Shown here: piece by piece, positions 12,642 to 22,494 of the stretch
Layout of the letters: each line of letters begins with the position of its first letter
Numbering within the stretch: position 1 is the first letter of the stretch
Source of the DNA: Kaistia hirudinis
GTDB taxonomy: Bacteria; Pseudomonadota; Alphaproteobacteria; Rhizobiales; Kaistiaceae
Direction of reading: 5' to 3'
NCBI RefSeq assembly: GCF_014196455.1
Contig: NZ_JACIDS010000004.1
Span: 620,001 to 684,000, forward strand
DNA: 64,000 nucleotides
Notes under the pieces: generated by a model
Database searches by the model: none
The model's input: the letters and a program-made list of their open reading frames with translations, nothing else
What the model was told of the DNA's origin: nothing
Position numbers and translations under genes: made by a program

Positions 12642-12718
12642 GCACCCGTAGCTCAGCTGGATAGAGCGCTGCCCTCCGAAGGCAGAGGCCAGGGGTTCGA
12701 ATCCCTTCGGGTGCGCCA
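12642..12718 (+). tRNA. tRNA-Arg (anticodon CCG), with encoded CCA
   Basis: The 77-base cloverleaf is complete. The acceptor arms GCACCCG (12642-12648) and CGGGTGC (12708-12714) pair fully. The D-arm begins GCTCAGCTGG, the anticodon stem-loop reads CTGCC-CTCCGAA-GGCAG with anticodon CCG (reads CGG, arginine), the T-loop is GGTTCGAATCC, and the discriminator G is followed by CCA. It is the anchor of the island: a serine recombinase remnant ends inside it on the opposite strand. Confidence 0.95.
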
Positions 12719-13300
12719 TTTCAGAACAGAACTATGAACGCCGAATGCAGCCGATCTCCCTCCCGAAGCGGCCACGAGCGTTCGTAGTAGCTCCGATTTC
12801 GATCCCATGATGCTGACTTCGGTGTCCGCCACCTCGACGCGCTGAGCAAAGGCGCGCAGGTGATCCCGCCGATAGCCGCCCCCTTCGAGCCGCAGTCCCT
12901 TGCGGGCCTCGCTGGCGAAGGCGCCAATCATGTCCACCGTGACCGATTGATTGCCTGAACTGTCGAGCGTCATCTGAATGCGCTCGGCATCGGCCTGGAC
13001 CTGATCGCGAATCGCCTTGAGACCGGCCATGCGCTCCTTCAGCACCGCATCGTTCAAATCCGCCAACCCGGCTTCGATGGCATCGTAGAGCCGGTTGAGC
13101 CTCTGGTCGGTTTCCGTGATTCGCCGGTTGAGTTCCGCAAGATGCTCACGGCGGCGCTCGGCGCGCTCCTCGCGGCGGTCGAGGAGACTGCCGAGGATGG
13201 TTTCGAGGCGCTTCGGCTGAAGCAGGCGCTCCTCCAGATGGCTCGCAACCAGATCGTCGAGCTTGTCCATCGGAAAGGATCGGCCAGCACAGCCGGCCTT
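12653..13300 (-). pseudogene. 3' remnant of a serine recombinase (resolvase/invertase family)
   Basis: About 215 residues of the C-terminal third of a large serine recombinase survive. They start at GCAGRSFPMDKLDDLV, the usual point after the zinc ribbon, and run through a long coiled-coil helix (RREERAERRREHLAELNRRI) to a beta-rich end (YRRDHLRAFAQRVEVAD). The catalytic serine domain, the recombinase domain and most of the zinc ribbon are missing, and no start codon belongs to it. The final residues, [16 protein letters not shown], are encoded by the antisense strand of the tRNA-Arg gene, a pattern known for recombinases whose elements insert at a tRNA 3' end. At about 13300 it is joined, out of frame, to the DUF4157 gene. 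Confidence 0.8.
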
Positions 13301-15182
13301 CGGCATGCTCCAGTGGATCGACCTCGAGCTTGCTTGGGGGCTCGGCCTTCACCGCCTCGGGTGCAGGCTCGACGGGCTTAGGCGTCTCTGCTGCGGGCTT
13401 CGGCGCCTCTACTGCCGGCTTCGGCGCCTCCGCCGACGGTGGGTGCGCATCGGCCACCTTGGTGGCGTCGGCGACATCGCCGGCCTTGGCCGCCTCGGCG
13501 GTCTTGGCAGCCTCCGTGCCCTTGGCGACATCGGCGACCTTCCCGCCGGCGCTGGCCAGTTCCTCGGCCTTGGCCAGCGACCCCGCCACTTCCCCGGTCT
13601 TGGCGAGCTCGCCTATCTTTGTTGTCGCGGAAGCCACCTCGGCCACCTTGCCGCCCTTGCCGGCGGCGCCGGCCGCCCCTCCGCCGACGAAGAAGCTGCC
13701 GATATCGACCACCGCCAGCCCCGGCAGCTCGGCATAGCGCTTTGCTTTCCAGGCTTCGATGTAGTTTTCGCCCAGCGCCTTGGCGAGACCGGCGGTCTGC
13801 CTACGATCGCGCTCCTGGTCCGGCAGCAAGGCACCGCCGAACTTGCGCAGTGCCTGGCCGTGCGACATTCGCTCGGCCGGCTTGCCGGACGGTTGGCCGC
13901 CCTCGCTGACCTGCTTGCGGGCCTCCTTCTCAAGGTCGGGGAAGGTCGCGTCGTAAAGGTCCTCCTCCAGCTGGACGAAGGTGCCGATGAACTTGAGCGG
14001 GTTGACCAGGCTCGGCCCCGGCAGCTGTCCGAGCCCCTTGACCGTATCGAACGGATGCACCGCCATCTTGCCGATGCCTTCGACCATGCCGAAGGCCGCC
14101 TTGGCGACGCCGCCGACGAACTGACGCGAGTATTTCGACGTGTTGTTGGAGACCGCGAGGCTGCCACGCTCCAGCGTCGCCAGCGTCGGGTGCGCCTTCT
14201 CGTCGACCATCGGCTTGGCCGGCTCGACATCCTCGAAATCGTCGACCGCCTTGAAGGTCGCGTCGTGCACGCCCTTGAAACCGGAATCGACGCCGGCTTT
14301 CCAGGCCTTGGTGGCGTCGAGCGGATGGACTTGCCAGCCATCCTTGTCCTTGCTGACCAGCTTCTCGCCGAACGCCTTCGCCGGCTTGGTCACCAGATTG
14401 GCGTTTGCCTTGGCGATGTTGGCGATGTTCCTTGTCAGCCCGCCCAGCACCGGCTTGCCTTCGGCCTTATCGGCAAGCTTTTGCGTCGCCTCAGCCAGCA
14501 GCACGGCCGGCTGCAGCTTCTCGGCGTGGTCGATCAGTACATTCGGATTCTTGGCAACCTCTTGGACGAAGCTCGTCGCCTTGTCCTTGACGCTCGAGCC
14601 TACATCCTTGGCCTTGTCGATGGCGCGTTTGTACCAGGGCTCCTCGGGCTCGGCGGCCAGCCCCGTGGCTGAGCCGAGCCGGACCATCGCCCTGCCTCCA
14701 CCCATCGCCCCATCGGCGGCGCGCCCGGCATCGCGCTCGAGATCGCCCATGCCGTCGGAGCGTGGCGCGGCTGCCCCGCCGCGCCGCTGCTGCACCACAT
14801 GGGCCAGTTCATGCGCGATGAGCCGCCGGCCCTCACCACTCTGCGGCGCGTACCGGCCACCACCGAAATAGACGTTGTCGCCGACCGTCACCGCCTTGGC
14901 CGCGTATTGCCCGGCGGTGCGCGCCGCCGCCGCATCGCTGTGCAGCCGCACCGCGCAGAAATCGGCGCCGAACGAGCGCTCCATATCGCCCCTCAGACCC
15001 GGCTCGAGCCCGCCGCTGCCTCCGGTCGGCGGCGTCGCCGGCAGGCCGGCGAGCGAGCCGCCAAACTTCGGCGTCGGGGGCGCGGTCTCGTCGGCCAGCT
15101 GGCTCGCCGGCCTGGGTGCGGCCCGTGCGCCCTGCGCCAGTTCCGGGCTCCGCACCTTGCTGCGCAGCGGGGCGTGGTTCAT
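13146..15182 (-). CDS. eCIS-associated DUF4157 protein with truncated C-terminus
   Basis: Residues ~66-132 are a DUF4157 domain with the metalloprotease-like motif HELAHVVQQ (His124, Glu125, His128), a hallmark of eCIS loci. A long alanine- and lysine-rich body follows, then small-residue hydrophobic stretches (FFVGGGAAGAAGKGG) and a linker of repeated EAPKPAVEAPKPA-type units (residues ~580-610). Native sequence stops near residue 628 (LEVDPLEHAEG). The last ~50 residues are read from the recombinase remnant in the wrong frame and are foreign. A proline-rich linker usually leads into an effector domain, so the original C-terminal domain seems to be lost. Its start overlaps the upstream stop by ATGA. 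It may be cargo, but that is an inference. Confidence 0.75.
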   Translation of the reverse strand: MNHAPLRSKVRSPELAQGARAAPRPASQLADETAPPTPKFGGSLAGLPATPPTGGSGGLEPGLRGDMERSFGADFCAVRLHSDAAAARTAGQYAAKAVTVGDNVYFGGGRYAPQSGEGRRLIAHELAHVVQQRRGGAAAPRSDGMGDLERDAGRAADGAMGGGRAMVRLGSATGLAAEPEEPWYKRAIDKAKDVGSSVKDKATSFVQEVAKNPNVLIDHAEKLQPAVLLAEATQKLADKAEGKPVLGGLTRNIANIAKANANLVTKPAKAFGEKLVSKDKDGWQVHPLDATKAWKAGVDSGFKGVHDATFKAVDDFEDVEPAKPMVDEKAHPTLATLERGSLAVSNNTSKYSRQFVGGVAKAAFGMVEGIGKMAVHPFDTVKGLGQLPGPSLVNPLKFIGTFVQLEEDLYDATFPDLEKEARKQVSEGGQPSGKPAERMSHGQALRKFGGALLPDQERDRRQTAGLAKALGENYIEAWKAKRYAELPGLAVVDIGSFFVGGGAAGAAGKGGKVAEVASATTKIGELAKTGEVAGSLAKAEELASAGGKVADVAKGTEAAKTAEAAKAGDVADATKVADAHPPSAEAPKPAVEAPKPAAETPKPVEPAPEAVKAEPPSKLEVDPLEHAEGRLCWPILSDGQARRSGCEPSGGAPASAEAPRNHPRQSPRPPRGARRAPP

Positions 15183-22095: not shown

Positions 22096-22125
22096 GGTCG
22101 CTGCTCCTGCCGAAAAACCAGAGTT

Positions 22126-22494
22126 TTACGAGAGTTGGCCGCCAATCATGATTTCGACATTGGCCGGCTCGGCACCGCCATTGGTCACGCTGAGCGTCGC
22201 AAACGACGGACCCAACAGCCCGATGGCGGCGCCGAACAGGATCACCGGCCCCTCGAGCCCGATCTCTTCGGCCGCACCGGCCTTGATCTTGATCGTGCCG
22301 CTATAGTTGTCGGCAGCAATGTAGACGAACTTCAACTTGTCGATGTGCTCGAGCTGCAAGGCCAAATCGACCTGGGCGCCCTTGGCGACGGCAACTGATG
22401 CGCCTGTCACCGCTTCAACATCTATGGTGCCAGTAGAACCCACACTCGCCGCCGACGAGCCAGCATTGAATGACCATGCAATAGGCTTGGGCAC
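22126..22494 (-). CDS. Hypothetical protein, first gene of the eCIS operon
   Basis: 122 residues from a GTG at 22494, chosen because AGGGAGG lies 8 bases upstream; an ATG at 22518 would place that ribosome-binding site inside the gene. The protein is a run of short beta strands with glycine and alanine (KPIAWSFNAGSSA, KLKFVYIAADNYSGTIKIK, EVEIMIGGQ-type ending). It has no signal peptide or membrane helix. The size and strand pattern fit a small decoration, fibre or adaptor protein of the particle, but I do not recognise the family. It is 30 bases before the sheath gene and is probably co-transcribed with it. Confidence 0.55.
   Translation of the reverse strand: MPKPIAWSFNAGSSAASVGSTGTIDVEAVTGASVAVAKGAQVDLALQLEHIDKLKFVYIAADNYSGTIKIKAGAAEEIGLEGPVILFGAAIGLLGPSFATLSVTNGGAEPANVEIMIGGQLS

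Follow-up and report, generated by a model that had tools for sequence, protein, structure and literature searches.

The stretch of DNA analysed here (the window) comprises 64 kb, positions 620001-684000 of contig C4 of the Kaistia hirudinis draft genome, which has 5.26 Mb in 14 contigs and is rated 100% complete. On its minus strand, from position 22494 down to 13299, lies part of the gene cluster of an extracellular contractile injection system (eCIS): eight collinear genes encode, in this order, a 122-aa protein, the sheath, the inner tube, a double-CxxC protein, a Pro-rich protein, a Pvc16 cap, an AAA+ ATPase and the 5' part of a DUF4157 protein, the last gene being cut. From the comparison of this sequence with complete relatives, we consider it very probable that the eCIS was disabled by a break within the DUF4157 gene and that the remainder is a dead leftover. 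About 9.2 kb of the cluster are left in the window, about a third of the approximately 26.5 kb that the whole cluster occupies on a Mesorhizobium contig. An earlier reading of the sequence alone (the original prediction) had described the locus as truncated; relatives carry the missing genes in order, so that the loss is now shown by comparison and not by absence alone.

Complete relatives and the missing baseplate genes

A contig scan found 99 relatives, and 80 loci were kept. The closest are those of Mesorhizobium sp. M8A (L002) and Devosia sp. 66-14 (L003), with sheath proteins 96% and 95% identical to the one in the window. L002 is collinear with window positions 13466-22814 at 89% DNA identity and, in addition, with positions 13299-13576 at 73%; L003 is collinear with positions 13299-22508 at 86%. 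Collinear DNA matches of 86-89% exclude chance. In the alignment with related genomes that had been proposed as a check, both loci follow the window down to position 13299, and from there on the window has recombinase DNA.

Beyond the DUF4157 gene, L002 continues with genes for a LysM-type protein, a tail-X protein, a hub, a spike, a PAAR-like protein, gp25, an 847-aa protein, gpJ, a 755-aa protein, a DUF6519 protein and a 296-aa protein. Pfam confirmed the spike (Phage_base_V), gp25, gpJ (Baseplate_J) and DUF6519; tail-X and PAAR matches were below the cut-off, and there was no Pfam match for the LysM-type, hub, 847-aa and 755-aa proteins. The names LysM-type, tail-X, hub and PAAR-like are presumptive and follow gene position. 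The L003 genome carries the same genes after DUF4157 (two stretches there read N), and plasmid pB of Ensifer adhaerens (L143) matches the series, in unchanged order, as far as gpJ. None of the 11 proteins from beyond the break was found in the 64-kb window by tblastn, while the six retained proteins that were queried (for two of them the query was the window's own protein) were found there in the control search, as was the DUF4157 piece. The earlier statement that spike, gp25, J-like and PAAR genes are not seen in the window therefore holds, with the reservation that a gp26-like hub relative is present (see below).

Sheath genes are found in four of 14 genomes of the genus, including this one; in each of the other three, the DNA fetched around the sheath contains matches to LysM, hub, spike and gp25. 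Across the 80 loci, the sheath was found in 80, the tube in 74, the cap and the AAA protein in 64 each, LysM in 36, the spike in 23 and gp25 in 18; this survey was rejected as a count of complete clusters, because the loci extend at most 10 kb after the sheath and often end before the baseplate genes.

A whole cluster of the L002/L003 type would once have been present at this position. The break would have joined the interior of its DUF4157 gene to the interior of a serine-recombinase gene resident at a tRNA-Arg gene; the losses would comprise the 3' portion of the DUF4157 gene, everything after it in the cluster (genes for the LysM, tail-X, hub, spike, PAAR-like, gp25, 847-aa and gpJ proteins and others) and the catalytic part of the recombinase. 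The two broken genes share one orientation, so that a single deletion would explain the joint, and we infer one deletion event that was recent.

By analogy with other contractile injection systems (CISs), an injection particle is not expected to assemble from sheath and tube when spike, hub, gp25 and gpJ are missing, since baseplate and plug proteins start sheath/tube assembly in those systems: according to excerpts of the respective papers, no assembled particles were found in a deletion of the plug (Alg6) and the gp25-like Alg9 starts the sheath (PMC8894135), and the VgrG-like spike Afp8 is accompanied by the baseplate J-like Afp11 in 98.7% of eCIS loci (PMC8213781). An excerpt of the latter paper also gives a rule of at least ten core genes for an eCIS cluster; the cluster in the window falls short of that number with sheath, tube, cap and ATPase plus the gp26-like and DUF4157 genes.

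Genes retained in the window

The window contains an eCIS-type sheath and inner tube, a Pvc16-type cap, an AAA+ ATPase and a DUF4157/eCIS-core domain (Table 1), and the Pfam matches agree with the operon content of the original prediction (sheath, tube, DUF4255 cap, AAA+ ATPase and DUF4157 protein). A sheath and an ATPase with no eCIS-type match had been named as the outcome that would speak against the assignment; the matches are clear: the sheath matches PF04984 (E 2.1e-9) and PF17482 (E 7.9e-9), the tube PF06841 (E 2.5e-42) and also TIGR02241, the cap Pvc16_N (PF14065, E 3.1e-34) and the ATPase AAA (PF00004, E 9.2e-24). The eCIS_core domain (PF13699, E 1.4e-28) is whole, although the gene is cut after about 627 codons, leaving its 5' 59%. 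Protein identities to L002 are 96% for the sheath, 99% for the tube, 90% for the cap and 92% for the ATPase. The best solved relative of the sheath is 8bky (E 4.7e-68), which we take to be the sheath of Streptomyces coelicolor; the Afp, Pvc and 7adz (Algoriphagus) sheaths are lower in the list.

The double-CxxC protein had been listed as an eCIS gene; it is present, and its assignment can be refined. PF12322, the T4 baseplate gp26 family, is matched by 47 of 51 aligned members of the CxxC family at E values up to 0.1 (best 6.3e-16), and by the window's own protein at E 0.00099 (19.3 bits, under the Pfam cut-off of 24.5). The AlphaFold2 model of the protein has a predicted local distance difference test score (pLDDT) of 94.4, and its best BFVD match is 'Baseplate hub assembly protein, bacteriophage T4-like' (E 3.1e-7, template modelling (TM) score 0.53); 29 matches in the viral library have E values of 0.001 or better, some of them named baseplate hub assembly protein or hub subunit, with TM scores of about 0.4-0.6. 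Nothing significant was found in the PDB, either by profile search or by fold search. Family profile and predicted fold suggest that the CxxC protein is probably related to the T4 gp26-like hub family, and that the window keeps one baseplate-type gene.

Two further proteins are less well characterised. The 122-aa protein encoded by the first gene is 94% identical to its counterparts in L002 and L003 and 34% identical to a protein at the same place on Ensifer plasmid pB; it has no Pfam, NCBIfam or PHROG match, and its all-beta model, with a pLDDT of only 57.6, is not reliable enough for a fold search. The Pro/Ala-rich protein changes much more quickly than the products of the neighbouring genes, with pairwise ratios of nonsynonymous to synonymous substitution (dN/dS) of 0.43-0.63, and phmmer identified no relatives beyond the L002 and L003 copies in the loci searched. 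Upstream of the operon, there is a single weak match to a -35/-10 promoter, with 0.4 expected by chance in 1.1 kb.

Table 1. Features of the eCIS remnant and its borders (window coordinates)
Feature	Position	Strand	Evidence
tRNA-Arg (ccg)	12642..12718	+	ARAGORN
Serine recombinase, 3' part, about 190-200 of 554 aa	12653..13300	-	blastn, Pfam, PHROG
Joint of DUF4157 gene with recombinase gene	13299..13300		ends of blastn homology on both sides
DUF4157/eCIS-core gene, 5' part, about 627 of 1049-1063 aa	13299..15182	-	PF13699, residues 59-135
AAA+ ATPase, Afp15/Pvc15 type by position and domain, 633 aa, open	15369..17270	-	PF00004, PF22977
Pvc16-type (DUF4255) cap, 410 aa, open	17267..18499	-	PF14065
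Pro/Ala-rich protein, 263 aa	18507..19298	-	phmmer; relatives in L002/L003 copies
Double-CxxC protein, probable relative of T4 gp26-like hub family, 232 aa	19295..19993	-	PF12322, structure model
Inner tube protein, 175 aa, open	19993..20520	-	PF06841, TIGR02241
Sheath protein, 523 aa, open	20524..22095	-	PF04984, PF17482
122-aa protein, first gene of operon, GTG start	22126..22494	-	homologues in L002, L003, Ensifer plasmid pB
Upstream region common to L002, presumed promoter region	22495..22814	-	blastn match to L002 ends at 22814
Probable transposase integrase-core fragment, far side of operon	22906..23460	-	PF00665 (rve), E 0.0075, weak, below cut-off

Selection, the joint and the rest of the genome

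Some observations weigh against a dead leftover: the genes that remain have open frames, purifying selection acts on them along the window branch, and decay is barely visible; the genome-wide negatives come without whole-genome profiles for Baseplate_J and PAAR; and the joint rests on a draft assembly of 14 contigs.

Open frames had already been noted in the original prediction, and all retained genes are indeed open, with lengths equal or nearly equal to those of their relatives. dN/dS was estimated by Nei-Gojobori counts with 500 bootstraps, with the Pro-rich gene excluded from pooled sets; the test is a weak one, as it uses three sequences (window, L002 and L003) of mixed histories and does not separate, on the window branch, the time before the break from the time after it. 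For the six structural genes, branch dN/dS is 0.163 for the window (95% interval 0.125-0.214), 0.107 for L002 and 0.125 for L003, and the share of bootstraps in which the window does not exceed the mean of L002 and L003 is 0.02. Sheath and ATPase, the two genes for which this comparison had been proposed, have a window dN/dS of 0.142 with no clear rise (share 0.26). All genes except the Pro-rich one reach 0.183 (share 0.064), and the DUF4157 part shows no rise (share 0.80). These values fit a break that is probably recent when measured against the divergence of the three copies, and some selection after the break is possible. The suggestion that the loss may be recent is thus compatible with the open frames and the low dN/dS, but this does not date it.

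Open frames and low dN/dS would also suit a shaft module of sheath, tube, cap and ATPase that selection keeps for a separate function, such as forming polysheath or acting as an ATPase/chaperone module. We regard this as improbable: a recent break would leave dN/dS low anyway, because the window branch also spans the time before it, the dN/dS of the six structural genes rises slightly, and the other three sheath-bearing congeners are not shaft-only.

The borders of homology define the joint closely. eCIS homology starts at 13299 with both L002 and L003, and recombinase homology stops at 13300 (plasmid pBH3a, L132) or 13274 (congener G004, L124), with only short imperfect similarity in the alignments at the joint. 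The DUF4157 frame continues to position 13146 inside recombinase DNA, making an open reading frame of 678 aa. The intact relatives of this gene (L002:16903-20094 and L003:16912-20061) encode 1049-1063 aa and are the last genes ahead of the baseplate genes; their C-terminus, lost in the window, has sub-threshold similarity to DUF2380 in L002 and L003, and to a SitA6-family toxin model in L002, the only copy scanned. An assembly error that fused two unrelated pieces at 13299 is about as improbable as a conserved shaft module: the genome is a draft, but the joint is internal to a contig at least 684 kb long, the similarity at the joint is short and imperfect, and no contig was found to carry the missing DNA.

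On the other side of the joint, the remnant corresponds to the C-terminal third of a serine recombinase and, across 193 residues, shares 72.5% identity with the 554-aa recombinase of plasmid pBH3a; in blastn, window positions 12693-13300 match positions 3578-2971 of L132 with 75% identity over the whole match. It matches the integrase PHROG 95 (profile positions 412-561 of 651), and the Resolvase, Recombinase and zinc-ribbon domains, present in both intact relatives (pBH3a and G004), were not found in the window piece by Pfam. The last 26 bases of the tRNA-Arg gene fall inside the alignment to the end of the pBH3a recombinase gene (attachment-site side). The claim that the operon stops at a recombinase remnant beside the tRNA is therefore correct: the joint maps to 13299/13300 and the recombinase runs into the tRNA-Arg gene.

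The congener G004 has a whole recombinase at the same tRNA-Arg gene, likewise reading into the tRNA 3' end (79% DNA identity), but no eCIS in the 16.8 kb beyond the recombinase and no sheath gene in its genome. Because this recombinase sits at the tRNA in a genome with no sheath, arrival of the eCIS on a tRNA-targeting element is not established; of the 'eCIS island at tRNA-Arg' originally proposed, it is the adjacency through the recombinase remnant that stands. The last 24 bases of the tRNA have one exact copy in the genome, the tRNA itself, and one copy with two mismatches on contig C8; no further copy of the tRNA end was found in the window, leaving the right border unmapped, and a shorter or diverged attachment site would escape this search. 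Blocks within window positions 1281-13274 align in order with the G004 sequence surrounding its tRNA-Arg gene, and positions 34725-45440 match that contig about 102 kb farther on. Window positions 24031-27022 (lrp-alr-dadA) and 27274-33290 map to quite different places in G004, showing that the region beside the eCIS is rearranged. Synteny with G004 is patchy, and the history of the region is therefore more complex than one insertion, with other events taking part.

The rest of the genome was searched, as the original prediction had considered that the missing part may lie elsewhere. Profiles for Phage_base_V (spike, Afp8) and the gp25-like wedge (Afp9) had no match in the genome, and each of these searches was positive in two of 14 control genomes. 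The LysM-type protein, which holds the Afp7 position ahead of the hub, was absent too, but was found in all four of the other genomes searched alongside, one of them the source of the query. When 14,571 bases of baseplate-side DNA of L002 (L108) were compared to the genome, only three matches of 35-47 bases were returned. A gpJ-like protein was not found in the window by tblastn, and the rest of the genome was covered for it by DNA similarity to L108 alone, without a Baseplate_J profile; a PAAR-like protein was not found in the window by tblastn, with no PAAR profile run on the whole genome. The genome has one sheath, one tube and one eCIS_core match. With no spike or gp25 detectable genome-wide, neither dispersed missing genes nor a complete baseplate and spike set at a second locus, the finding that was to argue against decay, is supported. 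A split system, with the baseplate half working from another locus or replicon, is the least likely alternative of all, as the DUF4157 gene is cut in mid-frame and neither spike, gp25 and LysM genes nor a baseplate-side DNA match above 47 bases were found in the 5.26 Mb, even though unlinked sheath and tube genes are known from the Granulicella and Glacieibacterium genomes described below.

eCIS loss and known systems

Among the titles listed by the literature searches, none named this locus or a baseplate-less eCIS remnant. The locus is a new, well-bounded example of eCIS loss by ordinary gene decay and not a new kind of system. What makes it a clean case are the near-identical complete relatives, the mapped joint and the genome-wide negatives for spike, gp25 and LysM. 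It also means that matches to sheath, ATPase or DUF4157 alone overcount working eCISs. Broken gene clusters are common, and the general interest is modest.

Sheath genes also occur outside complete operons and on plasmids. Lone open eCIS-type sheath genes were observed at L011:10001-11554 (517 aa), L079:9995-11155 (386 aa), L010:2501-4060 (519 aa) and L015:9989-11539 (516 aa), and tblastn found no other eCIS gene within up to 10 kb to either side (for L010 the left flank covered was shorter). In the genomes of L011 (Granulicella) and L079 (Glacieibacterium), the only tube-family match is also alone in 20 kb (L140:7620-8126 and L141 near 11976-12494, respectively); the L010 genome has no tube match, and the L015 genome has a second sheath together with a tube on a 3.9-kb contig. 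Such lone sheath and tube genes may be used outside an operon. A plasmid scan returned 124 plasmid records with any match; among them, four records from Ensifer adhaerens and one from Ciceribacter are large plasmids that carry sheath genes of the type in the window, with about 60% identity. Large plasmids are a possible route of eCIS spread.

In the CIS of S. davawensis, the tape-measure-related effector gene tme precedes the baseplate genes, according to an excerpt of PMC11126660. The DUF4157 domain of the L002 and L003 proteins and their position before the baseplate genes fit tme, a likeness in position and domain; the cut gene of the window, in comparison to the 1049-1063 aa of these relatives, would occupy the same place. 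Given this analogy with tme, the earlier statement that a tape measure is missing is uncertain.

Among the other systems compared, the recombinase locus of G004 shares the tRNA, but its recombinase is whole and is not accompanied by an eCIS. The CIS of 8bky provides the closest solved sheath. The eCIS of Ensifer adhaerens plasmid pB has the same gene order, including the 122-aa first gene, and a sheath with 60% identity; it differs from the window in that the queried genes are present up to gpJ, as tblastn matches and not as checked reading frames. Closest are the eCISs of L002 and L003, which share genes, order, 95-96% of sheath residues and 86-89% DNA identity over most of the 9.2 kb: where the window stops inside DUF4157, these two have the whole gene, followed by LysM, hub, spike, PAAR-like, gp25, gpJ, 755-aa and DUF6519 genes.

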